NCBI RefSeq assembly: GCF_027214025.1
Contig: NZ_JAPWHB010000007.1
Coordinates: 124,001 to 188,000, forward strand
Direction: 5' to 3'
DNA from: Parahoeflea alexandrii
GTDB taxonomy: Bacteria > Pseudomonadota > Alphaproteobacteria > Rhizobiales > Rhizobiaceae
DNA: 64,000 bases
Under the pieces are notes generated by a model that was not told the DNA's origin, searched no databases, and worked only from the letters and a program-made list of their open reading frames with translations. Position numbers and translations under genes: made by a program. Below are positions 8,777 to 32,585 of this stretch, piece after piece (within the stretch, counting starts at the first letter, position 1; the number at the start of each line of letters is the position of its first letter).

Positions 8777-8794
8777 GGGCGAAAGGGAGACACT

Positions 8795-9448
8795 ATGACC
8801 GACAAGAATATCGAACGCATCCGGAAACTCGATACGGCCACGCTCTCGGATGCCATGGACAAGCTTGGGATCGAGGGGGTTTGCCGCGGGATCAAACCGC
8901 GGGATCAAAACATCGGGTTGGCAGGAAGGGCGTTTACCGTGCTCTATGGGCCGATTGACCCGGTGAAACCGGGTTCCGTGGGGGATTACATTGATGATCT
9001 GCCGCCCGGTACCGTCGTTGTCCTGGATAATGGCGGACGAGAGGATTGCACAGTTTGGGGTGATATCCTGACTGAGGTAGCCAATGCAAAGCATCTTGGC
9101 GGAACCGTGATCGACGGACCATGTCGTGACGTGCATCTTTGCCTGAAACTGGGGTATCCCGTTTATTCGCGCAGCTACTCGATGAAAACGGGCAAAGACC
9201 GGGTTCAGGTGGATGCGACCCAGGTTCCGGTGAATATCGGCGACGCGCGCGTTTGCCCCGGTGATCTGATGCGCGGAGACTCCGACGGAGTGGTAGTGCT
9301 TCCACAAGAGCGAGAGGAAGATATTCTCGCCGCCGCGGAATCGATTGAAGCGACTGAAGAGAAAATCCGTGAGGCTGTACGGGGGGGCAAGGCGTTGCGA
9401 GTTGCCCGCGCCGAATTCGGCTATCATTCGTTACAAACGAAAACGTAA
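8795..9448 (+). CDS. ligK: RraA-family 4-carboxy-4-hydroxy-2-oxoadipate / 4-hydroxy-4-methyl-2-oxoglutarate aldolase (LigK-like)
   Basis: A 217-aa RraA-like class II pyruvate aldolase. The segments TATLSDAMDKLG at residue 13, VVLDNGGREDCTVWGDILTEVA near residue 75 and GTVIDGPCRDV near residue 103 contain the Arg/Asp pair that binds metal and pyruvate enolate in HMG/CHA aldolases. With LigJ in the same operon the likely reaction is cleavage of 4-carboxy-4-hydroxy-2-oxoadipate to pyruvate plus oxaloacetate, feeding the TCA cycle. RBS AAAGGGAGAC lies 5 nt before the ATG. It is the last gene before a strong terminator. Plain RNase E inhibitor function is unlikely given the context. Confidence 0.82.
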   Translation: MTDKNIERIRKLDTATLSDAMDKLGIEGVCRGIKPRDQNIGLAGRAFTVLYGPIDPVKPGSVGDYIDDLPPGTVVVLDNGGREDCTVWGDILTEVANAKHLGGTVIDGPCRDVHLCLKLGYPVYSRSYSMKTGKDRVQVDATQVPVNIGDARVCPGDLMRGDSDGVVVLPQEREEDILAAAESIEATEEKIREAVRGGKALRVARAEFGYHSLQTKT

Positions 9449-18466: not shown

Positions 18467-19287
18467 GGCTCTGTCGCAAACCGTAATTTTTGGTCACGAA
18501 GGGAGGCGTCATTGCTGGCTGTCAAGCGGCCAGAATTTCGAATTGGTTAGCGATTGAAAGACGAGGATTATAGACAAACCTCGCCTGTCGCTTTCGCATC
18601 ATGTGGACCAATTCGATGCCGTCGAGAATGATCCGGGCACTTGCCATCGACTTGAAGCCGAGCATAGAGCGGACCCGGCGTTTGGTGCGCCGATGATCCT
18701 GCTCTATCCGGTTATTGAGATACTTGCTCTTGAAGATGCGAATTGGTTTCGCTGAACGTCGCGTCATGTCGCGGAGACGGTCTTCAAGATCGCAGGAAAC
18801 AATTGCCTCGTGATTTGTCTGGCTGCCGTCGACGGTGATGCGATCCGAGCGGCCATGGCGTGCAAACGCCTTTCGAAGAAAACGCTTTGCAGCCGACAGA
18901 TCACGATGTTCGCTGAAGAAGAACTCGACCGTATCGCCAACACTGTCGATGGCACGGTAGAGATACATCCATTGGCCGCGCACCTTGATGTAAGTCTCGT
19001 CGAGATTCCACTTGCCAGCAACGACACGTTTGCGTTGGTGGAAACAATCCAGCAACTGCGGCGAAAAGTGTATAATCCAGCGGTGCACAGTCGAATGATC
19101 AACGCTCAGACCGCGTTCGGCCATCATCTCTTCGAGATCACGCAGGCTGAGATCGGAGGCAAGATACCAGCGTACGCACAGCAAGATGACCGACTGGTCG
19201 AAATGGCGGCCTTTGAACATTGAGAGCTCCCGGAAATATCGAGAGATCATTATCGGTCGCCGGTTAGCAAGAGTTTGCGACAGATCC
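18467..19287 (-). mobile_element. IS6-family insertion sequence (complete, 821 bp)
   Basis: The left end GGCTCTGTCGCAAAC starts at 18467, and the right end, read inward, is GGATCTGTCGCAAAC, ending at 19287; 14 of 15 bases match. Length of 821 bp and a single reverse transposase fit the IS6 family. The 8-bp flanks differ (CAGCGAAA at 18459-18466, GTCCAACT at 19288-19295), so no target duplication remains. The 95 bp between the HMG-CoA-lyase-like stop and the left end hold no recognisable gene. Confidence 0.88.
18522..19220 (-). CDS. IS6-family transposase
   Basis: A 232-aa DDE transposase reading from MFKGRHFDQ. Characteristic segments are SVILLCVRWYLASDLSLRDLE, GLSVDHSTVHRWI (helix-turn-helix region), the first catalytic Asp in WNLDETYIKVRG, the second in ITVDGSQ, and the final Glu in YLNNRIEQDHRRTKRR. 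The reading frame stays open for 86 codons upstream but those residues lack family resemblance and pass the right terminal repeat, so the ATG at 19220 was chosen. It appears intact and could be active. Confidence 0.9.
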   Translation of the reverse strand: MFKGRHFDQSVILLCVRWYLASDLSLRDLEEMMAERGLSVDHSTVHRWIIHFSPQLLDCFHQRKRVVAGKWNLDETYIKVRGQWMYLYRAIDSVGDTVEFFFSEHRDLSAAKRFLRKAFARHGRSDRITVDGSQTNHEAIVSCDLEDRLRDMTRRSAKPIRIFKSKYLNNRIEQDHRRTKRRVRSMLGFKSMASARIILDGIELVHMMRKRQARFVYNPRLSIANQFEILAA

Positions 19288-19502
19288 GTCCAACTCTCTT
19301 CTCTTTCGGTCTTTGGCATTTCCAGCCCGAAAGCTCCGCCTTCGGGACAGCACGGAACCGATCTCCCCAGGAAAACATTCATCGCTGTGTCCGCGGCCGA
19401 AGAGCCATTCAAACGTTGTATCAGCGGCGCTCTACGCTCTCCCTGCCGGGCGCGATCCTCAACTGGAGTGGTATGCAAAGTTCAAGAACGTTCCACAAGC
19501 TG

Positions 19503-19533
19503 TTGACACCGGGCCACCTCTTCCAGCCATATC
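19503..19533 (+). promoter_or_regulatory. Probable promoter of the riboswitch-nrdAB transcript
   Basis: A consensus TTGACA at 19503-19508 is followed after about 18-19 bp by CATATC (19528-19533). Transcription from here would begin right at the 5' side of the cobalamin riboswitch. The 200 bp between the insertion sequence and this site contain no supported gene. Confidence 0.5.
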
Positions 19534-19537
19534 TTGT

Positions 19538-19712
19538 GTGTGGTTCCGGCGATTCGCGTCGTCGGCTAAGACGGGAATTCGGTGAGCGCTAAGCAAAGCC
19601 GGAGCTGCCCCCGCAACTGTAAGCGAAGAGCCCGTGTCCAATGACGCCACTGGGAGCAATCCCGGGAAGGCTGGACAGGGCGATGACCCGCGAGCCAGGA
19701 GACCTGCCACGC
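19538..19712 (+). promoter_or_regulatory. Cobalamin riboswitch controlling nrdAB
   Basis: The conserved core elements occur in order: GGGAATTCGGTG at 19573-19584, CTGCCCCCGCAACTGTAAGC at 19605-19624, CCACTGGGA near 19648, GGGAAGGC near 19664, and the B12 box AGCCAGGAGACCTGCC at 19694-19709. Adenosylcobalamin binding should switch expression off. A 17-nt element, CGGGCGGGGTGCCCCGG (19727-19743), follows and is repeated exactly after the second riboswitch at 23994-24010. It controls a B12-independent ribonucleotide reductase, which fits repression when B12 is plentiful. Confidence 0.93.
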
Positions 19713-19802
19713 ACTGAAGACGACCACGGGCGGGGTGCCCCGGGGGATCGCTCCGCTGAGCCGTGCGTGCGCGGCTGACAGCATGCGACCGCCTGGCCTT
19801 TG

Positions 19803-19821
19803 CCCCTTTTCAACAAAGGGG
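19803..19821 (+). promoter_or_regulatory. Hairpin sequestering the nrdA ribosome binding site
   Basis: CCCCTTT (19803-19809), loop TCAAC, AAAGGGG (19815-19821) forms a 7-bp stem that contains the nrdA Shine-Dalgarno AAAGGGGAG; the ATG follows at 19829. This is a plausible translational expression platform for the upstream cobalamin riboswitch. Confidence 0.6.
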
Positions 19822-19828
19822 AGACTAC

Positions 19829-22660
19829 ATGTCGCAGACCATTTCGCCGGATATGCCGGCAAATTTACAGCATAACCGCCCACTCCCGGCTTCGACTGAG
19901 GCTGGTGCGGCGTATCGCGTTATCCGGCGGGAAGGGAATGTCACGCCGTTCGATCCCGGCAAGATCAACGTTGCCATGGGCAAGGCCTTTCTAGCCGTTG
20001 AAGGACAGGATGCAAAAACATCGACCCGCATCCACGAGATTACCGAGGACCTGACGATTGAGGTCGTCGGCGCATTGACCCGACGTGCCACCGAGGGGGT
20101 CGCGTTCCACATCGAGGATATCCAGGATCAGGTGGAATTGGCCCTGATGCGTGGCGGCCATCACAAGGTTGCCCGTGCCTATGTTCTGTATCGCGAGCAG
20201 CACAGCCAGGAGCGTGCAGCGGCACTGGAGGCACAATCGGCGAAAGCTGCAAAGCTTGCCATCAACGTCACCATGCCTGACGGCAAGAGGCAACCGCTTG
20301 ATGAAGGCCGCCTTGCCGCGGTGGTCGCCGAAGCCGTTGACGGCCTGACCGACCTGGACGGCGGAAAAATCCTGATGGAAATCCACCGCAGCCTTTATGA
20401 TGGCATAACCGAAGGCGAGTTGGAGCTTGCAGCGGTTCTGGCAGCGCGCTCCCTCGTCGAACAGGAGCCTGATTACTCACGTGCGACCGCGCGGCTGCTG
20501 CTCGACAAGCTGCGTCGCGAGGCGCTGAGCCACGTCTTCGGCGAGCCGCGCCAGTGCACTCAGAGTGAAATGACTGAAACCTATCCGGCCTATTTCCGGG
20601 CCTACCTTAAGACAGGCATTGCGACCGACCGCATCAGCTCTGAACTCGCCGAGTTCGATCTGGAGCGCATCGCCGCCGCGTTGAAGCCCGAACGCGATCT
20701 CGCCTTCCAGTATCTAGGCCTGCAGACACTTTATGACCGCTACTTCCTGCATGAAGGTGGCGTTCGCTTCGAATTGCCGCAGGCCTTCTTCATGCGCGTG
20801 GCAATGGGATTGGCGATCCGCGAAGATGATCGCGAGGCACGCGCCATCGAGTTCTACAGCCTAATCTCCTCGTTTGACTTCATGTGCTCGACTCCAACTT
20901 TGTTTAACGCCGGCACTAACCGGCCGCAGCTTTCATCCTGCTTCCTGACGACGATTTCCGACGACCTCGACGGCATCTTCAAGGGCGTGAAGGACAATGC
21001 GTTGCTGGCAAAATACTCCGGCGGGCTCGGCAACGACTGGACGCCTGTGCGCGGACTTGGGGCGCATATCAAGGGCACCAACGGCAAGAGCCAGGGCATC
21101 GTGCCGTTCCTCAAGGTTGCGAACGATACGGCGATCGCCGTCAACCAGGGCGGCAAGCGCAAGGGCGCGGTCTGTGCCTATCTCGAGACTTGGCATGTCG
21201 ACATCGAGGAGTTTCTCGAGCTGAGAAAGAACACCGGCGACGACCGCCGCCGCACCCATGACATGAACACCGCCAACTGGGTGCCTGATCTGTTCATGCA
21301 ACGTGTTGAGGCTGACGCTGAATGGACGCTCTTTTCGCCGGACGAGACGCCGGATTTGCACGATCTCTACGGGACGGAATTCAAGACGGCCTACGAAGCC
21401 TATGAGGAGAAGGCGCGCGCCGGACTGCTCAGGGTTTCAAAGCGAGTACGCGCGGTGGATCTGTGGCGGCGCATGCTGACCATGCTGTTCGAGACTGGCC
21501 ATCCGTGGATCACCTTCAAGGATCCGTGCAATATTCGCTCGCCGCAGCGCCACGCCGGTGTCGTGCATTCGTCCAACCTATGCACTGAAATCACACTCAA
21601 CACATCGAAAGACGAGGTTGCCGTGTGCAATCTCGGATCCGTCAATCTGGCTGCGCACGTCACCGAAACCGGCCTCGATCATGACAAGCTTGCTGGTACA
21701 GTGAAGACAGCGATGCGCATGCTCGACAATGTCATCGACATCAATTTCTACACTATTCCGGAAGCGCGTAACGCCAATCTGCGGCACCGTCCGGTCGGGC
21801 TCGGCCTGATGGGCTTCCAGGACGCGTTGCAGACCTTGCGCCTGCCTTATACCTCAAAAGAGGCGATCGCCTTTGCCGACGAGAGCATGGAAGCGATCAG
21901 CTATCACGCCATCGCGGCCAGTTCCGACCTCGCCGCCGAACGCGGCCGCTACGGGAGCTTCGAGGGATCGCTGTGGAGCCAGGGCACCCTGCCGATCGAT
22001 TCCGTCAAGCTGCTGGGCGACGCCCGCGGTGTCGAGTTCGATACGTCGTCGCGGTTCGACTGGGTCGGTCTGCGTGAAACTGTGAAACGCCAAGGGATGC
22101 GCAATTCCAACACGATGGCGATCGCACCGACCGCGACTATCTCGAACATCTGCGGTGTCAGTCAGTCGATCGAGCCGGCCTACCAGAACCTCTATGTCAA
22201 ATCGAACATGTCGGGCGATTTCACGGTGGTGAATGCCCGCCTCGTGCATGACCTCAAGGCACGCGGTCTGTGGGACCAGGTGATGATCTCCGACCTGAAA
22301 TACTTCGATGGTTCGCTCGGCCCGATCGACCGGATTCCGTCCGATCTGAAGGCGCTTTACGCCACCGCCTTCGAGATCGACTGGTCGTGGCTGATCTCAG
22401 CTGCCGCTCGCCGGCAGAAATGGATCGACCAGGCGCAATCGCTCAATCTTTACGTGGCACACCCCTCTGGGCGGACGCTCGACGCGCTCTACCGCGCGGC
22501 ATGGGCAAGCGGTCTGAAAACGACCTATTACCTGCGCTCCTCCTCGGCCACCCATGTCGAGAAATCCACGCTGAAAACCACCGACGGCAAGCTCAATGCG
22601 GTCAGCGCGGGACCTTCCGCCTGTTCGATTGACGATCCGGATTGCGAAGCCTGCCAGTAA
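19829..22660 (+). CDS. nrdA: Class I ribonucleoside-diphosphate reductase, alpha (catalytic) subunit
   Basis: A 943-aa NrdA. Two N-terminal ATP-cone-like domains are seen (about residues 28-120 and 148-235), then the barrel. Catalytic residues sit in QLSSCFLTT (active-site Cys), [12 protein letters not shown] (Asn, radical Cys, Glu) and [11 protein letters not shown] (partner Cys). The C-terminal tail ends in CEACQ, the shuttling Cys pair. It reduces ribonucleotides to deoxyribonucleotides with the NrdB radical cofactor. The start at 19829 follows AAAGGGGAGACTAC; an upstream in-frame start at 19763 would place coding sequence inside the expression platform. The operon is under a cobalamin riboswitch, so it likely backs up a B12-dependent class II enzyme encoded elsewhere. 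Confidence 0.95.
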
Positions 22661-22670
22661 GGAAACAACA

Positions 22671-23768
22671 ATGCCAAACCTCGAAAAGAACACTGCAACC
22701 GCCGAACCGCCAGCCGACACGACGGGTCTCGGAGAGATCGAGCGTGGCGGTGCCCGCGTCACCGTGGACGAGAAGCGGATGATCAACGCCCGAGCCGACG
22801 TCAACCAGCTGTTGCCGCTGAAATACAAGTGGGCATGGGAGAAATATCTCGCCGCCTGCAACAATCACTGGATGCCGACGGAAGTCTCCATGCAGGCCGA
22901 CATCGCTCTGTGGAAATCGCCGGATGGGCTGACCCCAGACGAGCGGCGCATGGTCATGCGCAATCTTGGCTTCTTCGCAGCTTCCGAGAGCCTCGTTGCG
23001 AATAACATCGTGCTGGCGATCTATCGCCACATCACCAATCCCGAATGCCGTCAGTATCTGCTGCGACAGGCCTTCGAGGAGGCGGTGCACACGCACACCT
23101 TCCAGTACATCGTCGAAAGTCTCGGCCTCGATGAGGGCGAATTGTTCAACATGTATCGCGAAGTGCCGTCTATCACCGACAAGGCGGCCTGGGCGCTGAA
23201 TCATACGCAGATGCTGGAAAACGCAGATTTCCGCACCGGCACACCGGAAACCGACCGCGAGTTCCTACGCGACCTCGTCGCCTTCTACGTCGTCTTCGAG
23301 GGGATGTGGTTCTACACCGGCTTCGCGCAAATCCTGTCGCTCGGCCGGCGCAACAAGATGGTCGGTATCGCCGAGCAATACCAGTACATCTTGCGCGATG
23401 AATCGATCCACCTGAATTTCGGCATCGACGTCATCAACCAGATCAAAGCCGAAAACCCGCATCTCTGGTCTAAGGCCTTCCAGGAGGAGGTGCGTACCAT
23501 GCTGCGTGACGCCGCCGAACTGGAGGCAGCCTACGGGCGCGAGACGATTCCGCGCGGCATGCTCGGCCTGACGGCGGAGCTATGCGAGCAATACATGCGC
23601 TTCATCGCCAACCGGCGCTGCGCCCAACTTGGCCTTGCGCCTGTTTATGAACCGACGGAGAACCCGTTCCCATGGATGAGCGAGACGATGGATCTGAAAA
23701 AGGAGAAGAACTTCTTCGAGACCCGCGTCATCGAATATCAGAACGGAGGCGCCTTGAGCTGGGATTGA
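22671..23768 (+). CDS. nrdB: Ribonucleoside-diphosphate reductase beta subunit, subclass Ic (Mn/Fe type)
   Basis: A 365-aa NrdB starting 10 nt after nrdA with a GGAAACAACA spacer. Candidate metal ligands are Glu106 (SESLVANN), Glu137 and His140 ([10 protein letters not shown]), Glu210 (VVFEGMWFY), Glu244 and His247 (RDESIHLNF). The residue aligned with the E. coli radical Tyr122 is Phe144, and the first ligand is Glu instead of Asp. Both features define subclass Ic, known from Chlamydia trachomatis, where a Mn(IV)/Fe(III) centre replaces the tyrosyl radical. The cofactor assignment is inferred from these positions. Confidence 0.93.
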
Positions 23769-23802
23769 CCCGCCGATAAAAACCCTGGACTATCCACCAC
23801 GA

Positions 23803-23974
23803 TGGTTTCCGGATCGCGGCGACGCGGACCGGATGAAAAGGGAACACGGTGCGGGCTTGCCCAATTCCGTGACTGCCCCCGCAACTGTAAGCGGCGAGCG
23901 AACCCGGACGATCCACTGGCCGAGAGGCCGGGAAGGACCGGGCGAGCGGCGACCCGCAAGTCAGGAGACCTGCC
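23803..23974 (+). promoter_or_regulatory. Second cobalamin riboswitch, downstream of nrdB
   Basis: Core elements in order are GGGAACACGGTGC at 23840-23852, GACTGCCCCCGCAACTGTAA at 23871-23890, CCACTGG at 23913-23919, GGGAAGG at 23930-23936 and the B12 box AGTCAGGAGACCTGCC at 23959-23974. The 17-nt element CGGGCGGGGTGCCCCGG follows at 23994-24010, identical to the copy after the first riboswitch, and directly precedes AAAGGA, the ribosome binding site of a short ORF starting at 24024. It begins only about 35 nt after the nrdB stop. Confidence 0.92.
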
Positions 23975-24023
23975 ATCGAACATCAACTCGAACCGGGCGG
24001 GGTGCCCCGGAAAGGACGTGAGC

Positions 24024-24143
24024 ATGGCAGACCGGCTTGAACGCCTGACATCGCTACCTGTTCCGCGGCCCCGCATGTTGCGCGGAGGGCGCCATGAATT
24101 TTGGTATCGATCTCACACTTCATCAGTTGCAATCCCGGGCTAG
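24024..24143 (+). CDS. Short ORF directly behind the second cobalamin riboswitch (39 aa, unknown)
   Basis: A 39-codon ORF begins MADRLERLTSLPVPRPRML 9 nt after an AAAGGA ribosome binding site that abuts the riboswitch platform. It overlaps the next ORF (24094) in another frame. I do not recognise it. It may be a leader peptide that couples translation of the 102-aa ORF to the riboswitch, or it may be chance. No domain, signal peptide or membrane segment is visible. Confidence 0.4.
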   Translation: MADRLERLTSLPVPRPRMLRGGRHEFWYRSHTSSVAIPG

Positions 24144-24402
24144 CTCGCCGGAACGGGCGAAGGAATATGGCCAGCTCGGCTACATGCAGTGGCTCGGCAG
24201 CCTGCCGGCGGATGGGTGCTACCGCATGGCGGCAGTGCGCGCCTATGCGACGGCCAAGCCGATCATGCGGACCGACCCGGCCGTGGCGGAATTCTGCCGG
24301 CTTCTGATCGTTTCCCTGGAAAAGCCGCTGGCGCCGCTTGATCTCGCCTTGCCGAAGCCGAGGCGGCGCGGCGGAGCCCGGGAACGGCGAATGTCGCTTT
24401 AA
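24094..24402 (+). CDS. Hypothetical protein downstream of nrdAB and a cobalamin riboswitch (102 aa)
   Basis: A 102-aa ORF with ATG after GCGGAGGGCGCC. The first 75 residues look like a compact helical protein (LTLHQLQSRASSPERAKEYG, LGYMQWLGSLP, MAAVRAYATAKP, AEFCRLLIVSLEKPL), and the C-terminus is Arg-rich. I recognise no family. Its position behind a riboswitch that matches the nrdAB one suggests a role when B12 is short, perhaps with the reductase. Gene status is probable because of codon use and the ribosome binding site, but function is unknown. Confidence 0.6.
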   Translation: MNFGIDLTLHQLQSRASSPERAKEYGQLGYMQWLGSLPADGCYRMAAVRAYATAKPIMRTDPAVAEFCRLLIVSLEKPLAPLDLALPKPRRRGGARERRMSL

Positions 24403-24748
24403 CAGCCGCGCGGTTCAGGCCGGGCGCACTGGCCGCCCTGTGCAGGTCCGTCGTCGCACCGAGCCGGGCTCCCCAAAGCTGGAGCACAGCAAGTAGCGCG
24501 ATGGCGGCGGCGCACAAGATGCCCTGTTAGATTGTGAATGCCGCAATAAAGGGGTGGCCGCGCTCAACGCCATGATGTCGAACCGCCTGGACGGCGCGCC
24601 CAATGGGGACGCCGACCAGGCGGCGGCAAACGCCGAAAGACCCGTCAGGGTGCCCCGGCCAGTGCCGCCAAGCGCGTCGCACTGGCGAGCACCAGGTTGA
24701 ACAGGAAACCCTGTGCAGTGGGACAACCGGTGTCTAAAAGAAACGTCA
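24403..24748. other. Non-coding or decayed gap between the nrd operon and gbcB
   Basis: No ORF here has a convincing start, ribosome binding site or family resemblance. A reverse-strand hydrophobic stretch around 24460-24530 could be the end of a decayed membrane protein, but frames are broken throughout. The gap separates the forward nrd unit from the convergent gbcAB unit. Confidence 0.4.
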
Positions 24749-25831
24749 TCAGATATCGATTTCCACCGTGCCGACCGGGTTGGAGCAGCAGGCGAGGATA
24801 TAGCCCTCCTCGATGTCCTCTTCCGAGATGCCGCCATTGTGCACCATCAGCACTTCACCGGCCTGCTTCTTCACCTTGCAGGTCCCGCACAGCCCGAAGG
24901 TGCATCCCGACGGGATGTTAAGGCCTGCTGCCTTGGCGGCGGCCAGCACGGTGTCGGTTTCGGCGCATTCGATCTCGACGTCCGAAGCGGAGAACCTGAT
25001 CCGGGCGACTGCGCCCGCGTCTGGCATTTCGATCTCCGGCGGGCGGGCCTCGGCCTCTGTCATTGCCGGTGCCTGGAAACTTTCCTGGTGATAGCGGTCC
25101 ATGTCGAAGCCAAGATTGGCGAGATACTCGCTGACCGCGCGCATGAAAGGCTCCGGGCCGCAGCAGAAGACCTCACGGTCCAGATAATCGGGCGCCATCA
25201 GACCGAGCATGAGTTGGTTGAACATGCCCTCGTAGCCGGTCCATGCCTTGAATTCATCCGGTTGCTCGACGACGAATTTGAGCTTTATGCCCGGCACCCG
25301 GCTCGCCATGTGATCAAGCCGTTCGCGGAAGATGATTTCCGACGGACGGCGCGCGCAATTTATGAAGACGATGTCGGAGGCGGCGCCGAGATCGAAGAAC
25401 CAGGTCGTCATCGACATCATCGGCGTGACGCCCGAACCGGCCGAGATGAACAGGTATTTGTCCGATGGATGGTTCTGGAAGCTGAACACGCCGGCGGGAC
25501 CGAACGCCTTGAGCTTCATGCCAGGGCGCAGATTGTCGAGCATCCAGCGCGAGCCGATGCTGCCCGGCTGCGCCTTGATCGTGATCGAGATCGATACCGG
25601 TCGCGATGGCGACGAGGAGATCGTGTAGGTGCGGTGCAGCGGGCCGTCCGGCAGCGGCAGCTCGAGCGTCAGGAACTGTCCCGGCGCGTAGTCGAACCAC
25701 GCACCCGAAGGAGCCCGGAAGCAGAAAGTGGCCGTGTTCGGAGTTTCCGGAATGACCATGACGCATTCCAACAACTCGTCGTCCCGCCAGGGCGCGTGGC
25801 CTTGTGGGCCGGGTGTGTGATGGATCGTCAC
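24749..25831 (-). CDS. gbcB: Glycine betaine monooxygenase reductase subunit (GbcB-like)
   Basis: A 360-aa hybrid reductase. The FAD-binding ferredoxin-reductase domain has the HRTYTISSSPS motif near residue 71, and the NAD domain has FISAGSGVTPMMSM near 129 and VFCCGPEPFMRAV near 229. The C-terminal plant-type [2Fe-2S] domain has IPSGCTFGLCGTCKV and a last Cys in YILACCSNPVG. It should pass NADH electrons to the GbcA Rieske oxygenase. I place the start at GTG 25831, 4 nt after the gbcA stop, giving a family-typical length. Longer in-frame readings run back into gbcA. Confidence 0.85.
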   Translation of the reverse strand: MTIHHTPGPQGHAPWRDDELLECVMVIPETPNTATFCFRAPSGAWFDYAPGQFLTLELPLPDGPLHRTYTISSSPSRPVSISITIKAQPGSIGSRWMLDNLRPGMKLKAFGPAGVFSFQNHPSDKYLFISAGSGVTPMMSMTTWFFDLGAASDIVFINCARRPSEIIFRERLDHMASRVPGIKLKFVVEQPDEFKAWTGYEGMFNQLMLGLMAPDYLDREVFCCGPEPFMRAVSEYLANLGFDMDRYHQESFQAPAMTEAEARPPEIEMPDAGAVARIRFSASDVEIECAETDTVLAAAKAAGLNIPSGCTFGLCGTCKVKKQAGEVLMVHNGGISEEDIEEGYILACCSNPVGTVEIDI

Positions 25832-25835
25832 CGCG

Positions 25836-27071
25836 CTACTCCGCCGCCACGGCTTCGGCCGGCTGCAGCCGCAGCAAGGTCCTGTCGCAATACCAGTCGA
25901 CGAACTGGATGACGCCGTCCTCGTGCAGTTGCGAGTAGGGCCCCGGCTCGTAGGCGGGCGAGTTGATGCCTGCCTGGTTGTCCTCGACCACCTGCCTGTC
26001 CTCGTCATTGGTGGCGAGCCAGACCTCGGTCAACCGCTTGAGGTCGTAATCGACACCCTCGACCGCGTCTTTGCGCACGATCCATTTGGTCGTGACCTCG
26101 GTGGTGGTCGGGCTCAGCGGCAGCACCCGGAAAACGACAGCGTGGTCGCCGAGGAAATGGTTCCAGCTGTTCGGATAGTGGAAGAAGAGAAGGGAGCCGG
26201 CGTCGAAGAACGGCATCCGGCCGAGCGGCTTCGCACAGCCCCGCTTCGAGTCCATCGTGTAGCTTTCGGCGTTGTTCAGCAGCGGCACGCGCGCCAACCG
26301 CCATTGCGACGTCGGATGGATGAGGAAGCGTGACGGAAGGCCGGCCGCCTCGCAGCGCTGCCAATGCCGTTCGACTTCGTCGTCGACTACCCCATCGCGC
26401 GGAGCCGTGATCGTCGGTTTGTCAGAGAATGTCCGGCACAGGCTCGGATGATTGCCGCCGCAATGATAGCACTCGCGATTGTTCTCGATCACCAGCTTCC
26501 AGTTGCCGTTTTCAATGATGGTGCTCTCGAAGGCGACCTTGCCGCCATTGAGATCATGAGGAGCGAGATAGCGGCCGAGTTCGTCGCCAAGCGGCTCGAA
26601 GTCGGGCGCCTCGGCGGCGACGCAGACGAACACCAAGCCGCCCGCCTCGCGGCAATGCACCGGCTTCAGCCCGTGCGCCGCCGCGTCGAAGTCGGCACCC
26701 ATGTCGCGGGCATAGAGCAACCTCCCGTCGAGCTCGAAGGTCCATTGGTGATAGGGGCAGACGAGTTTCGGCGCCGAGCCTTTGACCGCCGAACAGATGC
26801 GCTGGCCGCGATGACGGCACACATTGTGGAAGGCGCGGATCGCGCCATCGCCGCCGCGGACGATCAGCACCGGATAGGCGCCGATCTTCATCGTGACATA
26901 GCTTCCGGTCTTCGGGACCTCGCAGGCCGGGATGGCGAACAGCCATTCGCGATAGAACAGGTTCTCGAGATCCATCTCGTAGATGTCGGGATCGGTGTAG
27001 AAGGGGCGCGGCAGGCTGTAGCCTTCCCGTCTTCCATACAACATGGCCAGTGCATCGGCATTGCTCGGCAT
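25836..27071 (-). CDS. gbcA: Glycine betaine monooxygenase, Rieske oxygenase subunit (GbcA-like)
   Basis: A 411-aa Rieske non-heme iron oxygenase. The Rieske ligands are Cys85, His87, Cys105 and His108 (CRHRGQRIC...CPYHQW). The mononuclear iron site lies in ENNRECYHCGGNHPSLC near residue 200. With GbcB it would demethylate glycine betaine to dimethylglycine, releasing formaldehyde, using O2 and NADH. The start at 27071 has a GGAGTGTCTTGCG leader; the upstream in-frame extension is unlike the family. A cobalamin riboswitch lies 120-290 nt upstream on the same strand, which is unexpected for this enzyme. Related substrates such as stachydrine or carnitine-type betaines cannot be excluded. Confidence 0.85.
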   Translation of the reverse strand: MPSNADALAMLYGRREGYSLPRPFYTDPDIYEMDLENLFYREWLFAIPACEVPKTGSYVTMKIGAYPVLIVRGGDGAIRAFHNVCRHRGQRICSAVKGSAPKLVCPYHQWTFELDGRLLYARDMGADFDAAAHGLKPVHCREAGGLVFVCVAAEAPDFEPLGDELGRYLAPHDLNGGKVAFESTIIENGNWKLVIENNRECYHCGGNHPSLCRTFSDKPTITAPRDGVVDDEVERHWQRCEAAGLPSRFLIHPTSQWRLARVPLLNNAESYTMDSKRGCAKPLGRMPFFDAGSLLFFHYPNSWNHFLGDHAVVFRVLPLSPTTTEVTTKWIVRKDAVEGVDYDLKRLTEVWLATNDEDRQVVEDNQAGINSPAYEPGPYSQLHEDGVIQFVDWYCDRTLLRLQPAEAVAAE

Positions 27072-27197
27072 CGCAAGACACTCCAAAATCCGCGCGCGGC
27101 GGGACCGGATCTTACGGATGACAAACGGGACCGTTCGCGGACCGGCCGCCAGCGCCTGTCCACGACTCGCCCCCACCGCCACCCGCGGTTTGACGTC

Positions 27198-27359
27198 GCC
27201 TGAAGGCTGGTTTCCGGGCTCGGGATTCACGGAGCGCGACGCCTTCTCGGACGCTGGTGTCCAATGGCAATTGCCGCGCTCTATTCCCTTACCGTTGCGG
27301 GGGCAGCGCCGGTTTTTCACCGGCTTCCCAATTCTCCCGCCTTGTGGGCGGGCACCTTC
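27198..27359 (-). promoter_or_regulatory. Third cobalamin riboswitch, upstream of gbcAB
   Basis: Read on the reverse strand, the core elements occur in order: AAGGTGCCC near 27357, GGGAAGCCGGTG at 27327-27316, CTGCCCCCGCAACGGTAAGG at 27305-27286, CCATTGG near 27266, and the B12 box GAGCCCGGAAACCAGCC at 27221-27205. Its sequence differs from the two riboswitches at nrdAB, so it is not a recent copy. About 125 nt of leader without an obvious terminator hairpin separates it from gbcA. Confidence 0.92.
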
Positions 27360-27594
27360 GGCTTGATTTCAAGCTAGCCGATTTCCCGGGCGGCACAGCC
27401 GGAAAATGCGTCATGGGCGGTTCCCATTCCGACATCGGAGGCCTGCAAGTCGCTTTGTGACAACGACGAGGATGCGGACGCCTTGCGAGCGGGAGACCAA
27501 CCCTGCACAATCGTGTTGTTTCTGGATCCGAACGCGAAGCGACAGAAGAGAGGGCACCAGAAGATTCCCGGCTCTACAACGCTTCGGTGTCGCT

Positions 27595-28092
27595 TCAGAG
27601 ATGCGCGGCAAGGCTGCCAAACTGTCCCCGATGATACAGAAGTGGCCTTGCGTCCGGGGCGTAGTCCAGATGCCTGACCTGTCCCAGGAAAAGGACATGA
27701 TCCCCCGCCTCGACCTCGCGGGCGACATCGGCCACCAGAAGGGCTGCAGCGCTGCGCAGGGTGGGCAAACCATGGCGGTCCTGGAACAGGTTCGTCAGTG
27801 TATCGTCAGGCCGTCCGGCGAAATGCATGGCATGGGGGCGCATATCCTGAGTGAGTATATTCACCGCAAAACGGCATGATTTCCGGATCTTGCCCAGCAT
27901 CCTGGATCGGCGGTCCAGCGAGATGGAGATCAAGGGCGGATCGAGCGACACCGACATGAATGCACTGACCGTCATGCCGTGATCGCCTTCGCTTGTGCGG
28001 GTGGTGATGACCGTGACGCCGGTGGCGAACCGGCCGCAGCAGTCGCGCAGGGCGCGCGGGTCGATATGCTCGAGAACTGCTGTGTCGGGCAT
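27595..28092 (-). CDS. Flavin reductase-like FMN-binding protein
   Basis: A 165-aa flavin reductase domain protein (HpaC/split-barrel type). Typical segments are CGRFATGVTVITT near 17, GMTVSAFMSVSLDPPLISISL near 39, FAVNIL near 73 and the closing LLYHRGQF. It would reduce FMN or FAD with NAD(P)H and hand it to a partner oxygenase. It is the last gene of the mesX-mesD unit, 117 nt after mesD. Because MesD needs oxygen and MesX, a flavin supply role is plausible but inferred. The ATG at 28092 follows GGAAGACGACCCC; a TTG 18 nt earlier is the alternative start. Confidence 0.8.
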   Translation of the reverse strand: MPDTAVLEHIDPRALRDCCGRFATGVTVITTRTSEGDHGMTVSAFMSVSLDPPLISISLDRRSRMLGKIRKSCRFAVNILTQDMRPHAMHFAGRPDDTLTNLFQDRHGLPTLRSAAALLVADVAREVEAGDHVLFLGQVRHLDYAPDARPLLYHRGQFGSLAAHL

Positions 28093-28209
28093 GGGGTCGT
28101 CTTCCGTCAAATGGTGATTCTGGTGCAGACCAGGGCCGGTCCACGGTCAGGGGTCCCTTGGCAGTATTGGCGAGGCGCAGAATGCGCTCGCTGCACTATG
28201 CGCCAGACC

Positions 28210-29253
28210 CTACTCCGCAGCGAGCGGGGTCGAGAGTTCTCTGCGGATGATCTCGGCACCTGCGCTCAGGGCGTTGAGCTTGCCTCTGGCGACCGCGCGT
28301 GAAAGCGGCGCCATGCCGCAGTTGGTGCAGGGATAGAGCTTGTCCGCATCCACGAACCGAAGCGCCTTGCGCAAGGTGTCGGCGACCTCCTCCGGCGTTT
28401 CGATGGTGTTGCTTGCCACGTCGATGGCGCCGACCATCACCTTCTTGCCGCGCAGGAGTTCGATCAGGTCGATCGGGACATGCGAGTTGTGGCATTCCAG
28501 CGAAACCAGATCGATATTGGAGGCCTGAAGTCTGGGGAAGGTTCGTTCGTACTGACGCCATTCCGATCCCAGGGTCTTTTTCCAGTCGGTATTGGCCTTG
28601 ATGCCGTAGCCATAGCAGATATGAACGGCCGTCTCGCAATTGAGCCCTTCGATCGCCCTTTCCAGGGTGGCAACGCCCCAATCATTCACCTCGTCGAAGA
28701 ACACGTTGAAGGCAGGTTCGTCGAACTGGATGATGTCCACGCCGGCGGCTTCGAGCTCGCGGGCCTCCTGATTGAGGATGGTGGCGAACTCCCAGGCGAG
28801 TTTCTCGCGACTGCGATAGTGGGCGTCATAGAGCGTATCGATCATGGTCATCGGCCCCGGCAGCGCCCATTTGATCGGGCTGTCGGTCTGCGCGCGCAAG
28901 AATTTTGCATCCTCCACGAAGACCGGCTTGTCGCGGGAGACTGGTCCCACAACGGTAGGGACACTTGCATCGTAGCGGTCACGGATCTTTACGGTTTCGC
29001 GCTTTTCAAAATCGACGCCGGTCAGATACTCGATAAAGGTGGTGACGAAATGCTGGCGGGTCTGTTCACCGTCAGAGACGATGTCGATCCCGGCGCGCTG
29101 CTGCTCGGAAAGGGTGACGCGCAACGCGTCCTGCTTGCCCTCGACCAACGCTTCACCCTCAAGCTTCCAGGGCGACCAGAGCTTTTCGGGCTCGGCGAGC
29201 CAGGAAGGTTTGGGAAGGCTGCCGGCAGTCGATGTGGGAAGTAATCTGGTCAT
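28210..29253 (-). CDS. mesD: Core-MetE-type, folate- and B12-independent methionine synthase (MesD-like)
   Basis: A 347-aa protein matching only the C-terminal catalytic half of MetE (full MetE is about 750 aa). Seen are LLPTSTAGSLPKP at the start, GIDIVSDGEQTRQHF near 54, DIIQFDEPAFN near 196, and zinc-site residues in LECHNSHVPID and YPCTNCGMAPLSRAVA. The neighbour is a DUF1852 protein, the pairing that defines the MesD/MesX system described for aerobic bacteria, in which methionine is made without folate or cobalamin from an unidentified methyl donor. It is co-oriented with mesX (29-nt gap) and a MetR-like regulator. Confidence 0.88.
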   Translation of the reverse strand: MTRLLPTSTAGSLPKPSWLAEPEKLWSPWKLEGEALVEGKQDALRVTLSEQQRAGIDIVSDGEQTRQHFVTTFIEYLTGVDFEKRETVKIRDRYDASVPTVVGPVSRDKPVFVEDAKFLRAQTDSPIKWALPGPMTMIDTLYDAHYRSREKLAWEFATILNQEARELEAAGVDIIQFDEPAFNVFFDEVNDWGVATLERAIEGLNCETAVHICYGYGIKANTDWKKTLGSEWRQYERTFPRLQASNIDLVSLECHNSHVPIDLIELLRGKKVMVGAIDVASNTIETPEEVADTLRKALRFVDADKLYPCTNCGMAPLSRAVARGKLNALSAGAEIIRRELSTPLAAE

Positions 29254-29282
29254 TGAGTTTACCTTGTATTTCTTGAGGCAGA

Positions 29283-30260
29283 TCAGGCGGCGAACCGGGC
29301 GGACCATGCGTCCAGAACGGCCCGATGCGGCTTGATGAAGTGGTCTTCGGCAAATTTGCCTTGTTCAACGGCCAGTTGGCTGCGCTCTTGCCGATCGTAG
29401 ACGATCCGGGTCAGCGAATGATCCTGATGTTCCAGGCTCGGCCGATAGCATTCGCCCGCGGCGGAATTGGCGTTGTAGATCTCGGGCCGGTAGATTTTCT
29501 GGAATGTCTCCATCGTGGCGATGGTCCCGATCAGCTCCAGATTCGAGTAGTCATTGAGCAGATCCCCGAAGAAGTAAAAGGCCAGCGGCGCCGCGCTCTC
29601 CGGGGGCATGAAGTAGCGGACCCGCAGCCCCATTTTCCGGAAATACTGCTCGGTCAGGGAGCTTTCGTTCGGCTGGTATTCGAAGCCCAGAACCGGGTGG
29701 CGATTGGCTGTTTGCCGATAGATCTTGTTGTGGGAGACGCTCAGGCAGATCACCGGCAGCTTGCCGAACCGCGCGGTGTAGGCGTCGGAGGACACGAAGC
29801 TCTTGAACAGCTTGCCGTGCAGATCGCCGAAGTCGTCGGGAATGCCGAAGCCGGTCTGACCCCTGTTGTATTCCGGCAGCCGCACGCTGAAGTCGTAGTC
29901 CCGCACATAGGAAGAGAAGTTGTTCCCGACGAGCCCTTCGATGCGCGCATCGGCCTTGCGGTCGAGGATCGTCGTCTTCAACACCTCGATGGCCGGAAAG
30001 GCGTTGCCCGAACCATCGATATCCAGATCGACGGAAACGATGTCCAGTTCAACACCGTAACGATCGCCATCGGGATTGTCCCACAGCGCAAGGCTGTTGA
30101 AACGGTTGTCGATCATCCGCAGCGCATTGCGCAGATTCTGCTTTCGATTCTCCCCGCGCGCAAGGTTGGCGAAATTGGTGGTGAGCCGGGTGCCGTCGGC
30201 GGGCCTGTAATCTTCGTCGAACCGAATGCTTTTGATCGAAAAGGTGAAGTCCGGGGTCAT
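29283..30260 (-). CDS. mesX: DUF1852 protein MesX, partner of MesD
   Basis: A 325-aa protein recognised as DUF1852/MesX. Characteristic stretches are FSIKSIRFDEDYRPADGTR near the start, TNFANLARGENRKQNLRNAL, RNALRMIDNRFNSLALWDNP, and ELIGTIATMETFQKIYRPEIYN near the end. MesX is reported to be required together with MesD and oxygen for methionine synthesis; its chemistry is unknown. No signal peptide or membrane segment is visible, so it is cytoplasmic. The gene lies 155 nt downstream of the metR-like gene, and a 19-nt palindrome (30344-30362) lies 84 bp before its start. Confidence 0.87.
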   Translation of the reverse strand: MTPDFTFSIKSIRFDEDYRPADGTRLTTNFANLARGENRKQNLRNALRMIDNRFNSLALWDNPDGDRYGVELDIVSVDLDIDGSGNAFPAIEVLKTTILDRKADARIEGLVGNNFSSYVRDYDFSVRLPEYNRGQTGFGIPDDFGDLHGKLFKSFVSSDAYTARFGKLPVICLSVSHNKIYRQTANRHPVLGFEYQPNESSLTEQYFRKMGLRVRYFMPPESAAPLAFYFFGDLLNDYSNLELIGTIATMETFQKIYRPEIYNANSAAGECYRPSLEHQDHSLTRIVYDRQERSQLAVEQGKFAEDHFIKPHRAVLDAWSARFAA

Positions 30261-30343
30261 TTGAGGTCGTGTCCTGGCTGAGGGGCAATGCTTGCTGTAT
30301 GCCCGAGCCAGAGCATGAATAAAAATGACTTCTCCTCAGAAAG

Positions 30344-30362
30344 GCATGACACTGAGTCATGC
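30344..30362. promoter_or_regulatory. Palindromic MetR-type operator upstream of mesX
   Basis: GCATGACACTGAGTCATGC is a perfect 7-bp inverted repeat with a 5-nt spacer and fits a LysR-type T-N11-A box. A near copy with the same 6-nt arms and spacing lies before the regulator gene at 31292-31310. Position 84 bp upstream of mesX suits an activator. Confidence 0.65.
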
Positions 30363-30415
30363 GAAGGGCGCTGTAGTCAAACACTGAAAGGGTGGATCCG
30401 GCCGAAGGTAGCCCT

Positions 30416-31288
30416 TCAGATCTGAACGGTCTCGGCCAGCCGTATGAAGCCTTCCAGATAGCTGGCAGCCATGCCTTCGCGATGGCCCAGATGAATGGAC
30501 TTGGCGATCCCCTCGCCAATCCGTACGCTCTTCACCCCCTTGGCCCCGCGTAACAGCCAGTCGGGGGTCGCACTGACGGCGCGGCCCGACGCCACCAGCC
30601 GCAACATCAGATCGGTCGTCTCCACGGTGCGGTGACGGCGCGGCAAGGCATTCGCAGGGACAAGGAATCGGGTGTAGATATCCAGCCTTTCGCGGGCGAC
30701 GGGATAGGTGATCAGGATCTCGCTTGCCAGATCCTCGGGCACGACCCGCGACTTTTGCGCCAAGGGGTGGGTTTCGGCCACAGCCAGAACCAGTTCGTAA
30801 TCAAAGACAGGCTTGTATGTGAGCCCCGGACGTTCGATCGGATCGGGAGTGACGAGAATGTCGATTTCATGGCCCAGGAGCGCAGTCAGGCCGCCGAACT
30901 GGAAGGCCGTGGTCACATCCAGCTCGACATCGGGCCATTCCGCCAGAAACGGGTCGACCACCCGCATGAGCCAGTCCTGGCAGGGATGACACTCCATCCC
31001 CACCCGGATGGCGCCGCGCCGGCCGCGCGCATAATCCTCCAGCACCGTCGCGCCATGCTCAAGCTGTGGCAGCACCCGATGCGCCAGCCCCAAGAGATAC
31101 TCTCCCGTAAGCGTCAGGCGCAGCTTGTGCCCCTCGCGCTCCCAGAGCTTGACGTCATGACGCGCCTCGAACCGCCGGATCGCATGACTGACCGCCGATT
31201 GTGTCAGGCAGAGCTTGTCGGCGGCCTGGGTCAGGCTGCCGGTCCGGTCAATCTCGCGCAGGATGGCCAAAGGTTGGATATCGATCAT
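30416..31288 (-). CDS. metR: LysR-family regulator, MetR-like
   Basis: A 290-aa LysR protein. The helix-turn-helix covers residues 1-60 (SLTQAADKLCLTQSAVSHAIRRFE), and the effector domain includes IRVGMECHPCQDWLMRVVDPFL, close to MetR proteins that sense homocysteine. It heads the metR-mesX-mesD-flavin reductase unit. The ATG at 31288 was chosen because the conserved MIDIQPLAILREIDRTGSL start matches the family; the in-frame extension upstream is not conserved and covers the operator. Methionine-pathway regulation is supported by the neighbouring methionine synthase. Confidence 0.85.
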   Translation of the reverse strand: MIDIQPLAILREIDRTGSLTQAADKLCLTQSAVSHAIRRFEARHDVKLWEREGHKLRLTLTGEYLLGLAHRVLPQLEHGATVLEDYARGRRGAIRVGMECHPCQDWLMRVVDPFLAEWPDVELDVTTAFQFGGLTALLGHEIDILVTPDPIERPGLTYKPVFDYELVLAVAETHPLAQKSRVVPEDLASEILITYPVARERLDIYTRFLVPANALPRRHRTVETTDLMLRLVASGRAVSATPDWLLRGAKGVKSVRIGEGIAKSIHLGHREGMAASYLEGFIRLAETVQI

Positions 31289-31291
31289 TGA

Positions 31292-31310
31292 GCATGAGTC
31301 CTTGTCATGT
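31292..31310. promoter_or_regulatory. Second copy of the MetR-type operator, at the metR start
   Basis: GCATGAGTCCTTGTCATGT shares both arms (GCATGA and GTCATG, same spacing) with the palindrome before mesX. It covers the AAGGA ribosome binding site of metR, 4 bp from the start codon, so the regulator probably represses itself here. Confidence 0.6.
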
Positions 31311-31509: not shown

Positions 31510-32015
31510 TTCGCCGGTCATGCTCGGACGGTTTTCGCCCACGGGTTCATCGCCGCTGAACGCAATTCGCAATAATGCTTGGAGGGATGTTGTGGCGCGG
31601 GATGTGGAACAGGTTGGCATTGGGTCATGGATGGAGACAAAACGCTGTAGATGTCGCTGTGACTTGCAGCGTTTCATGATCCTCACTCACGGCGATCGTC
31701 CCTGGCATTTCGGCGGCTTTGAACGAGAACCTCCAAGACTAAACCGTCCTGATCACCTGCGCGCCACGGCCAATGCTTCTTGCCACGGATTGAAACAACG
31801 GCTTTATCCAGATGTCACTTGTCCCCAAGCCGGCCGGATGATCGACGCCGGATGTCGTTGGCAAAGGTGCAGCCGAATTTCTCCGCCCACATCCGGACGG
31901 TTTGGTGCGAGACAATGATCCCGCGGGCAGCAAGCCCTCGACCATTCGCAGGCTGAGAGTGAACCGGAAACAGAGCCACACGGCGTGGGCAATGTTCGAC
32001 CTTGACCCCGTCACA
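31510..32015 (-). pseudogene. Decayed IS6-family transposase (frameshifts and internal deletion)
   Basis: On the reverse strand, pieces of one transposase are found in order but in different frames. They are HAVWLCFRFTLSLRMVEGLL near 31960, ARGIIVSHQTVRMWAEKFG near 31900, LGDK followed by a stop then HLDKAVVSIRGKKHWPWRA near 31800, DQDGLVLEVLVQSRRNA near 31740, and MKRCKSQRHLQRFVSIHDP near 31660. The central catalytic part is missing. This is a different IS6 subgroup from the intact copy at 18.5 kb. Confidence 0.75.
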
Positions 32016-32139
32016 GCCCGAGGCGGCCAGTGCCAGGTCGAGGGTGTCAGTGAAGTCGTCCACTTTTACGCTGGTGCATGGCTTCCCCCTCTCATCGTTT
32101 GCATTGCAAACGACTGCCGGGCAATGGGACGATGATGTA

Positions 32140-32330
32140 TCGCGAGGCGATCGGCATGGTCAATCTTGTTGTGGGACGCCGTGAACTCGGAGCCGCGACC
32201 CTGGCTGAGGCGGCGGCCGCGCCGCCCTTCGCGCTGCGACTGCTGAAGCGGTCGCTGAATCGAACCTTCGATGTGCGGGGCATGCGGTCGGCGCTGGAGG
32301 CGGATTTCGGCGATGCAGACACCAGATGTC
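32140..32330 (+). pseudogene. C-terminal fragment of an enoyl-CoA hydratase (crotonase)
   Basis: The segment REAIGMVNLVV followed by APPFALRLLKRSLNRTFDVR matches the end of crotonase-family proteins, with a short internal deletion around the LAEAAAA stretch. The N-terminal two thirds, with the catalytic site, is absent and the fragment lies between two transposase remnants. It is not functional. Confidence 0.65.
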
Positions 32331-32585
32331 AGGTTCAATCGCCGCCGTTTTCCGCCGCAAATCGTTGCTCACGCAGTTTGGCTTTACCCGCGGTTCAATC
32401 CGAGCCTGCGTGAGGTTGAGGAAATGCTGCTTGAGCGTGGGATCGACGTTTCCCATGTGACGGTCCGTCGCTGGATCGCCAATTTCGGCCCCCAGATTGC
32501 ACGCAACCTGCGACGACGGCAGGCTTGACCCGACGATGTTTGGTCTCTGGACGAGGTCTTCGTGAAAATTCTTGGCCCGGGCCGT
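32313..32585 (+). pseudogene. Truncated IS6-family transposase, N-terminal part
   Basis: MQTPDVRFNRRRFPPQIV, AHAVWLYPRFNPSLREVEEM and GIDVSHVTVRRWIANFGPQI form an IS6 transposase N-terminus. An in-frame TGA at 32526-32528 interrupts it, after which WSLDEVFVKILGPGR continues the catalytic domain before sequence resemblance ends near 32580. The break abuts the 3' end of the convergent HIU-hydrolase-like gene. Confidence 0.8.

Follow-up and report, generated by a model that had tools for sequence, protein, structure and literature searches.

The pairing of a cobalamin-riboswitch-controlled class I ribonucleotide reductase, NrdAB, with the class II enzyme NrdJ is known from other bacteria. The corresponding riboswitch logic for metE and metH is described in PMC9600662, and the core methionine synthase MesD, together with its partner MesX, is reported to work independently of cobalamin (PMC7857596). 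For betaine, a 2025 paper described cobalamin-dependent demethylation by the MtgBCD route of Ruegeria pomeroyi as a major oceanic pathway (PMC12478193); it places Ruegeria MtgC at the hub of methionine synthesis as well as of betaine demethylation, raises the possibility that one MtgC serves several MtgB-like paralogs, names bacteria that have GbcAB without MtgBCDE, and mentions aerobes without GbcAB. Here we describe an island of about 12 kb in a 64,000-nucleotide stretch of Parahoeflea alexandrii (contig NZ_JAPWHB010000007.1, positions 124,001 to 188,000; hereafter the window), in which nrdAB, a small open reading frame (ORF), a gbcAB-like pair, a flavin reductase-mesD-mesX operon and a LysR gene are combined with cobalamin riboswitches. 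The segment is probably a B12-independence island whose enzymes, oxygen-dependent and free of cobalamin, would take over from the cobalamin enzymes of the cell, in part under riboswitch control, and the new and best supported point, judged from sequence, is that GbcAB would be part of the response to B12 shortage.

Three riboswitches, the island's enzymes and their B12-dependent counterparts

The island contains three aptamers, each spanning the full Rfam model RF00174 (positions 1-189; gathering score 31.5 bits), as the initial annotation had proposed for these sites. The first (19524..19725, forward strand; 131.8 bits) precedes nrdA, the second (23786..23991, forward strand; 135.6 bits) precedes the small ORF, and the third (27188..27374, reverse strand; 127.6 bits) lies about 117 nt 5' of the inferred start of gbcA. 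Membership in this family means a covariance-model score above the gathering threshold, and corrinoid binding by the window's aptamers is predicted on that basis. The whole genome (G000; 5.54 Mb in 68 contigs) holds seven RF00174 matches, three of them in 8 kb inside the island, and their clustering is therefore not due to chance. One of the other four lies among cobQ, cobW and cobN, and three stand ahead of nitroreductase-family, CbiX/ferredoxin-like and CbiM-like genes. At 8530-9402 of locus L022, CbiX-like and thioredoxin-like ferredoxin domains occur in one protein behind a cobalamin riboswitch.

The third riboswitch points at a gbcA-like Rieske oxygenase of the betaine N-demethylase family (25836..27071, reverse strand; NF058607, 542.5-542.9 bits, cut-off 670), whose start at ATG 27071 was inferred from a GGAG upstream, followed by a gbcB-like reductase with FAD, NAD and 2Fe-2S domains (24749..25831, reverse strand; GTG start inferred; best model NF058606, 392.6 bits, cut-off 500). 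Pfam finds a Rieske domain and a ring-hydroxylase alpha domain in the first protein, which with the adjacent reductase gives the architecture of GbcAB. The closest solved structures to the oxygenase are 3n0q (612.1 bits) and the stachydrine demethylase Stc2 (3vca, 565.9 bits), and its substrate would be glycine betaine or a closely related quaternary amine. On the gbcA strand, a simple scan of the leader detected nothing resembling a terminator, and the inferred ATG lies well past the aptamer, so repression at the ribosome site appears likelier than termination. The leader as a whole is more stable than its shuffles (z -3.0), which says little about the expression platform because the stretch contains the aptamer.

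The B12-dependent counterpart of this pair is encoded in the same genome. Contig C21 carries MtgB (MTTB), MtgC (B12-binding), a DUF1638 protein, methylenetetrahydrofolate reductase, MtgD (pterin-binding) and RamA, and an MtgE-like homocysteine methyltransferase and cobQ-cobW-cobN lie near the MtgB/C/D cluster. The clustering of MTTB, B12-binding and pterin-binding families with a RamA-type activator identifies MtgBCD by family, from which its activity is predicted.

Behind the first riboswitch, nrdA (19829..22660, forward strand; NF005544, 1645.9 bits, cut-off 965) encodes the large subunit of class I ribonucleotide reductase with an ATP cone detected by Pfam, and nrdB (22671..23768, forward strand, start codon inferred; NF005550, 671.0 bits, cut-off 309) the small subunit, both exceeding the NCBIfam equivalog cut-offs. 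The B12-dependent class II NrdJ is encoded on another contig. This part of the island is ordinary.

The methionine branch lies on the reverse strand, where a flavin reductase (27595..28110; Pfam Flavin_Reduct, 134.6 bits) adjoins the core methionine synthase mesD (28210..29250; NF006589, 693.5 bits, cut-off 392), the putative oxygenase partner mesX (DUF1852; 29283..30260; Pfam MesX, 587.4 bits) and a MetR-like LysR regulator (30416..31285; best NCBIfam model MetR PRK15421, 197.7 bits, cut-off 382). The family score of MesD and the adjacent DUF1852 gene identify MesD/MesX, which is already known as a system; NCBIfam and Pfam models thus bear out both this identity and that of the class I reductase as first assigned from the letters alone. 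Control of MesDX by the third riboswitch was rejected, since that element lies 3' of the mesX-mesD-flavin reductase operon and points at gbcA. GbcAB keeps its place in the riboswitch set first proposed; for MesDX, which has no riboswitch 5' of its operon, the proposal does not hold as first worded. In the Paracoccus mesDX locus L013, the covariance model R1 (defined below) likewise gave no convincing match (best 9.8 bits).

MesD is the sole PF01717 (MetE-type) match in the genome, and the congeners G046 and G139 have no PF01717 match. An MtgC query at E 1e-15 returned exactly one B12-binding relative in each of the three genomes, and at the same threshold none of them has a MetH-type B12 domain, which in many other genomes shows about 35% identity to MtgC. 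Because each has a single MtgC and no MetH-type domain, and the congeners lack PF01717, methionine synthesis in the genus appears to depend on MtgC. In Ruegeria, MtgC takes part in methionine synthesis as well as in betaine demethylation, and on that basis the window's bacterium would have, side by side, two replacements for a single corrinoid protein.

The gbcA riboswitch and MtgC across genomes

Two samples of Rieske loci were compared: the best 80 of at least 586 confirmed Rieske relatives in named genomes and, within the window's family, the 29 best loci outside its own genome (157 of the 199 genomes searched had any match). Riboswitches were scored with R1, a covariance model built from 19 riboswitches, and called intact at 75 bits or more; Rfam rescoring covered L031, L039, the plasmid loci, the G035 and G042 loci and the altered or remnant cases, and most intact calls rest on R1. 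Across the 1.55 Mb of the first sample, R1 gave 39 matches at E <=9e-12, 28 of them directly ahead of the Rieske gene. Seven of these 28 loci had sequences in R1, but a search with the core motif alone, made before R1 was built, had already recovered 27 of them; the remaining one, L031, was confirmed by Rfam, which also gave 82.3 bits for L039. Rfam scored L049 as a remnant (32.0 bits, part of the model), which leaves an intact riboswitch at 27 of 80 loci, and the L052 riboswitch is likewise a remnant (31.8 bits). In the window's family, an intact riboswitch stands ahead of the Rieske gene in 14 of the 29 loci, and L140 and L147 carry altered riboswitches with a changed invariant core (56.3 and 61.3 bits by Rfam). 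Both gbcAB-bearing plasmid records examined (Cereibacter and Gemmobacter) have a riboswitch ahead of the homologous Rieske gene. When the riboswitch label (with L049 and L052 counted as carrying it) was mapped onto a tree of 85 Rieske sequences, it appeared on several well-separated branches and required 12 changes, compared with a mean of 25.9 for shuffled labels.

An intact gbcA riboswitch goes with MtgC. We scored MtgC as present at >=76% identity and E <1e-75 (one partial case, G248); other matches had 32-37% identity and E 5e-32 or worse, barring a second fragment in one MtgC-positive genome. Among the 109 rows with a known MtgC state (L058, L008, L009 and two PDB sequences have none, and L064 comes from the assembly of L036), MtgC occurs in 41 of 42 with an intact gbcA riboswitch versus 33 of 67 without one. 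The corresponding counts are 14/14 versus 1/15 in the window's family (Fisher p 2e-7, kinship ignored) and 8/9 versus 4/16 in the window's own Rieske clade (Fisher p 0.004, kinship ignored). When every above-threshold match is counted as a riboswitch, MtgC is found in 43/46 versus 31/63 rows overall and in 14/16 versus 1/13 in the window's family (p 2e-5, kinship ignored). Independent pairs, chosen greedily on a midpoint-rooted FastTree gene tree, were concordant in ten cases and discordant in one (sign test p 0.012); counting L049 as intact would give 42/43 and pairs of 11:1, as against 41/42 and 10:1 with it excluded. The idea that MtgC-less genomes simply have no cobalamin riboswitches was rejected, as all 35 genomes without detected MtgC carry at least one somewhere and therefore still sense cobalamin.

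The arrangement also recurs as a whole. In G035, which belongs to another genus of the same family, riboswitches stand ahead of metE, gbcAB and nrdAB within 10 kb; the metE is full-length (TIGR01371, 1126.7 bits), and identity to the window is 59% and 55% for gbcAB and 75% and 85% for nrdAB. This is the same design with MetE replacing MesDX. Riboswitch-metE is found in G035 and G175, and a Methylocella plasmid carries riboswitch-nrdAB together with riboswitch-metE. Five riboswitch-gbcAB loci (L037, L047, L056, L075 and L086) include class Ib nrdF, and all of these save L037 include nrdE; NCBIfam supplied the name for one protein each, and the others were assigned by clustering. Split metH is also present in the L056 locus, and in Cereibacter gbcAB adjoins what reads as a split metH. 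An additional riboswitch lies in the retrieved stretch at 6 of 27 intact loci versus 2 of 53 others (L052 and L082). Apart from gbcB, no neighbour proved near-universal when neighbouring genes were clustered across 32 loci (30 intact, L049 and L052).

Because the intact riboswitch goes with MtgC and the three-riboswitch island recurs in G035, GbcAB appears to relate to MtgBCD as MetE does to MetH, replacing it without B12. The broader suggestion of the initial annotation, that the segment works as a unit under B12 shortage, gains support from this co-conservation and from the presence of NrdJ and MtgBCDE in the same genome; a lack of co-conservation, which would have spoken against a unit, is not what the intact riboswitch-Rieske loci in both samples, the G035 island and the five gbcAB-nrdF loci reveal. 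The riboswitch might instead have nothing to do with replacing MtgBCD, GbcAB serving to make formaldehyde and one-carbon units or to spare methionine when B12 is short. Its neighbours invite that thought, as gbcAB adjoins mesDX in the window and what reads as split metH in Cereibacter and L056, and shares loci with class Ib nrd genes. We nevertheless consider it unlikely, because it predicts neither the link to MtgC nor that sister lineages without MtgC lack the riboswitch, and MesDX is reported to be functional in Escherichia coli without added GbcAB (PMC7857596).

Several observations weigh against GbcAB as the stand-in for MtgBCD. GbcA and GbcB are the best NCBIfam models for the two proteins, yet both score under the curated equivalog cut-offs, and nine relatives likewise score low against the GbcA model (495.6-534 bits). 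The loci compared are the best-scoring ones, not a random draw, and their frequencies are not population estimates. Although an intact gbcA riboswitch implies MtgC, the converse does not hold: in 33 rows MtgC occurs without an intact riboswitch, and of these 16 fall in an 18-row Rieske clade, four in the window's own clade (L033, L041, L045 and L052) and 13 on other branches. The 18-row clade has no riboswitch at all, and MtgC is present in 16 of the 17 rows tested in it. Conversely, L056, a metagenome-assembled genome, has the riboswitch, and MtgC was not found in it. Altered or remnant riboswitches occur in the MtgC-less L140 (G169) and L147 (G094), both of one genus, and in the MtgC-positive L049 (G210) and L052 (G212), so decay of the riboswitch is not evidence by itself. 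A second, riboswitched gbcA copy was rejected as the reason for the MtgC-positive exceptions, as 29 of 32 genomes have a single close copy (E 1e-100); the set consists of 31 genomes whose analysed locus has no riboswitch, together with G212 of L052, and does not include the genome of L049. Roseibium aquae (G204) has two close Rieske copies, one with a riboswitch and one without, and the further close copies in G229 and G230 have none.

Part of this pattern may reflect substrate. In the riboswitch-free clade, 8 of 18 loci have an OYE-family gene, presumably resembling an N-methylproline demethylase, within 6 kb, against 0 of 18 and 0 of 12 in two riboswitch-bearing groups, and this clade may therefore act on another betaine. 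A TetR-looking neighbour (judged by eye; no NCBIfam match) shows a similar split, with 7 of 18 in the riboswitch-free clade and none in the 18 and 12 riboswitch-bearing loci; all neighbour counts rest on a rough ORF caller. The GbcA model was tried as a substrate indicator and rejected, its scores failing to separate riboswitch-free from riboswitch-bearing groups. A variant of our interpretation, possible if rather doubtful, is that the window's Rieske enzyme demethylates proline betaine (stachydrine) or another quaternary amine and is repressed by B12 since an MttB-family paralog charging MtgC does the same job. Stc2 is among its closest solved relatives, the genome has five PF06253 matches (one partial), and PMC12478193 raises the sharing of one MtgC by several MtgB-like paralogs. 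On contig C50 (L023), moreover, an MTTB paralog (L015) adjoins an OYE-family protein as seen beside the riboswitch-free clade, possibly a B12 route for another betaine. The absence of OYE-type neighbours from the two riboswitch-bearing groups speaks against the variant, as does GbcA being the best NCBIfam model for the Rieske protein.

The small ORF and the plasmid setting

The ORF behind the second riboswitch (24094..24402, forward strand) encodes 102 aa with a C-terminal R-R-G-G-x-R-x-R-R motif, and neither Pfam nor NCBIfam gave a match. Members of the same family were identified in G010 (76% identity), G025, G135, Cereibacter plasmids and G603, the last being the one clear new member from a class-wide search of 385 genomes; matches in G479 (E 0.007), G579 (E 0.005) and G095 (E 1e-3) were treated as chance. 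The family thus comprises the window, L111, L112, L113, L115, L116 and L154, at about 86-102 aa. A riboswitch lies directly 5' of the ORF in the window, G010, G025, G135 and two Cereibacter plasmids and is absent at G603. The G010 copy is divergent from split metH and the Cereibacter copies from cobyric acid synthase genes. By these comparisons the ORF represents an undescribed family found mostly behind cobalamin riboswitches, and our guess is that this small protein has an accessory function in the low-B12 state. Two small ORFs had first been counted here: this one belongs to a real family, and the other is most likely a possible leader ORF of 39 codons that overlaps it (24024..24143, forward strand), a weak call made by eye with a counterpart in the same place in G010.

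The window's 240-kb contig carries repC and is therefore probably a repABC plasmid or chromid. Neither congener has a close GbcA (best E 4e-30 and 2e-31), though both have MtgC, and both lack MesD; on this comparison, which covers mesD and gbcA, the island looks like an accessory acquisition covering three cobalamin-dependent functions. Its left edge is bordered, next to the nrdA riboswitch, by an IS240-like DDE transposase ORF (18522..19478, reverse strand; Pfam DDE_Tnp_IS240, 132.7 bits). On the right side, short ORFs at 31739-32528 resemble, by eye, remnants of similar insertion sequence elements; a Pfam search of them gave nothing above cut-off. Three Cereibacter plasmid loci carry genes for B12 supply and for substitutes, L115 and L116 with cobalamin-synthesis genes and the small ORF, and L008 with cobalt transport, split metH and riboswitch-gbcAB.

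Such a setting raises the alternative that the genes are chance neighbours in a plasmid patchwork assembled by insertion sequence elements. Besides the transposase and repC, the plasmid matches fit it: among the 20 listed of 103, each covers at most one quarter of the island. A second three-riboswitch island in G035 (metE, gbcAB, nrdAB) and the repeated gbcAB-nrdF neighbourhoods make this alternative very improbable.

A proposed model and its relation to known systems

In the model that we favour, a B12-independence island, NrdAB would replace class II NrdJ, MesD/MesX with the flavin reductase would replace the MtgCDE methionine synthase, and GbcAB would replace MtgBCD in betaine demethylation. 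With plentiful cobalamin, the three aptamers would bind it and keep expression of nrdAB, gbcAB and the small ORF low; at gbcA the bound aptamer would probably hide the ribosome site and release it as cobalamin falls. MesDX would join the same response despite having no riboswitch of its own; this role, the direction of regulation, the substrate of GbcAB and the translational mechanism are inferred. We lean, with modest conviction, towards a wider conclusion, in which GbcAB/MtgBCD is a further riboswitch-controlled isozyme pair and the substitutes form a modular, partly plasmid-borne cassette that makes a B12-tied genus B12-optional and brings along a B12-repressed small protein. If so, a set of Alphaproteobacteria would switch betaine use between B12 and oxygen routes according to B12 supply, which would change how B12 limitation is linked to betaine turnover and extend the B12 regulon by one more isozyme pair. 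It would also give uncharacterised Rieske demethylases of this family a testable role and expose a small protein family mostly behind cobalamin riboswitches.

As far as literature searches go, GbcAB as a riboswitch-controlled stand-in for MtgBCD would be new. Among the papers listed by searches of the open-licence PubMed Central literature, no title or abstract opening links a cobalamin riboswitch to glycine betaine, Rieske or gbcA, and the sole paper containing both 'riboswitch' and 'gbcA' is PMC12478193, where 'riboswitch' stands only in the title of a reference. The window's genome shares with the Ruegeria pomeroyi MtgBCDE system of that paper the same protein families, DUF1638 and the homocysteine methyltransferase included; our comparison adds 40 genomes, beyond the window's own, in which MtgC occurs alongside a GbcA-like gene preceded by an intact cobalamin riboswitch.

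The other described systems are matched to differing degrees. The riboswitch nrdAB/nrdJ pair is reproduced with no essential difference, the first riboswitch and NrdAB lying in the window and NrdJ in the same genome. The MesD/MesX system of PMC7857596 is matched in MesX, MesD and a nearby flavin reductase; the window's copy differs from it in adjoining riboswitch-gbcAB, in its MetR-like regulator and in having no riboswitch of its own. Like the glycine betaine monooxygenase GbcAB and the stachydrine demethylase Stc2, the window's pair combines a Rieske protein of the same family with a GbcB-like reductase, but it scores below the GbcA/GbcB cut-offs, has a cobalamin riboswitch in front and has a predicted substrate. 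The nearest precedent for the proposed regulation is the riboswitch metE/metH pair, in which the B12-independent isozyme is repressed while the B12-dependent one works; GbcAB/MtgBCD would differ from it in acting on betaine demethylation, with a substitute that is an oxygenase, expected to yield formaldehyde, and not a methyltransferase.

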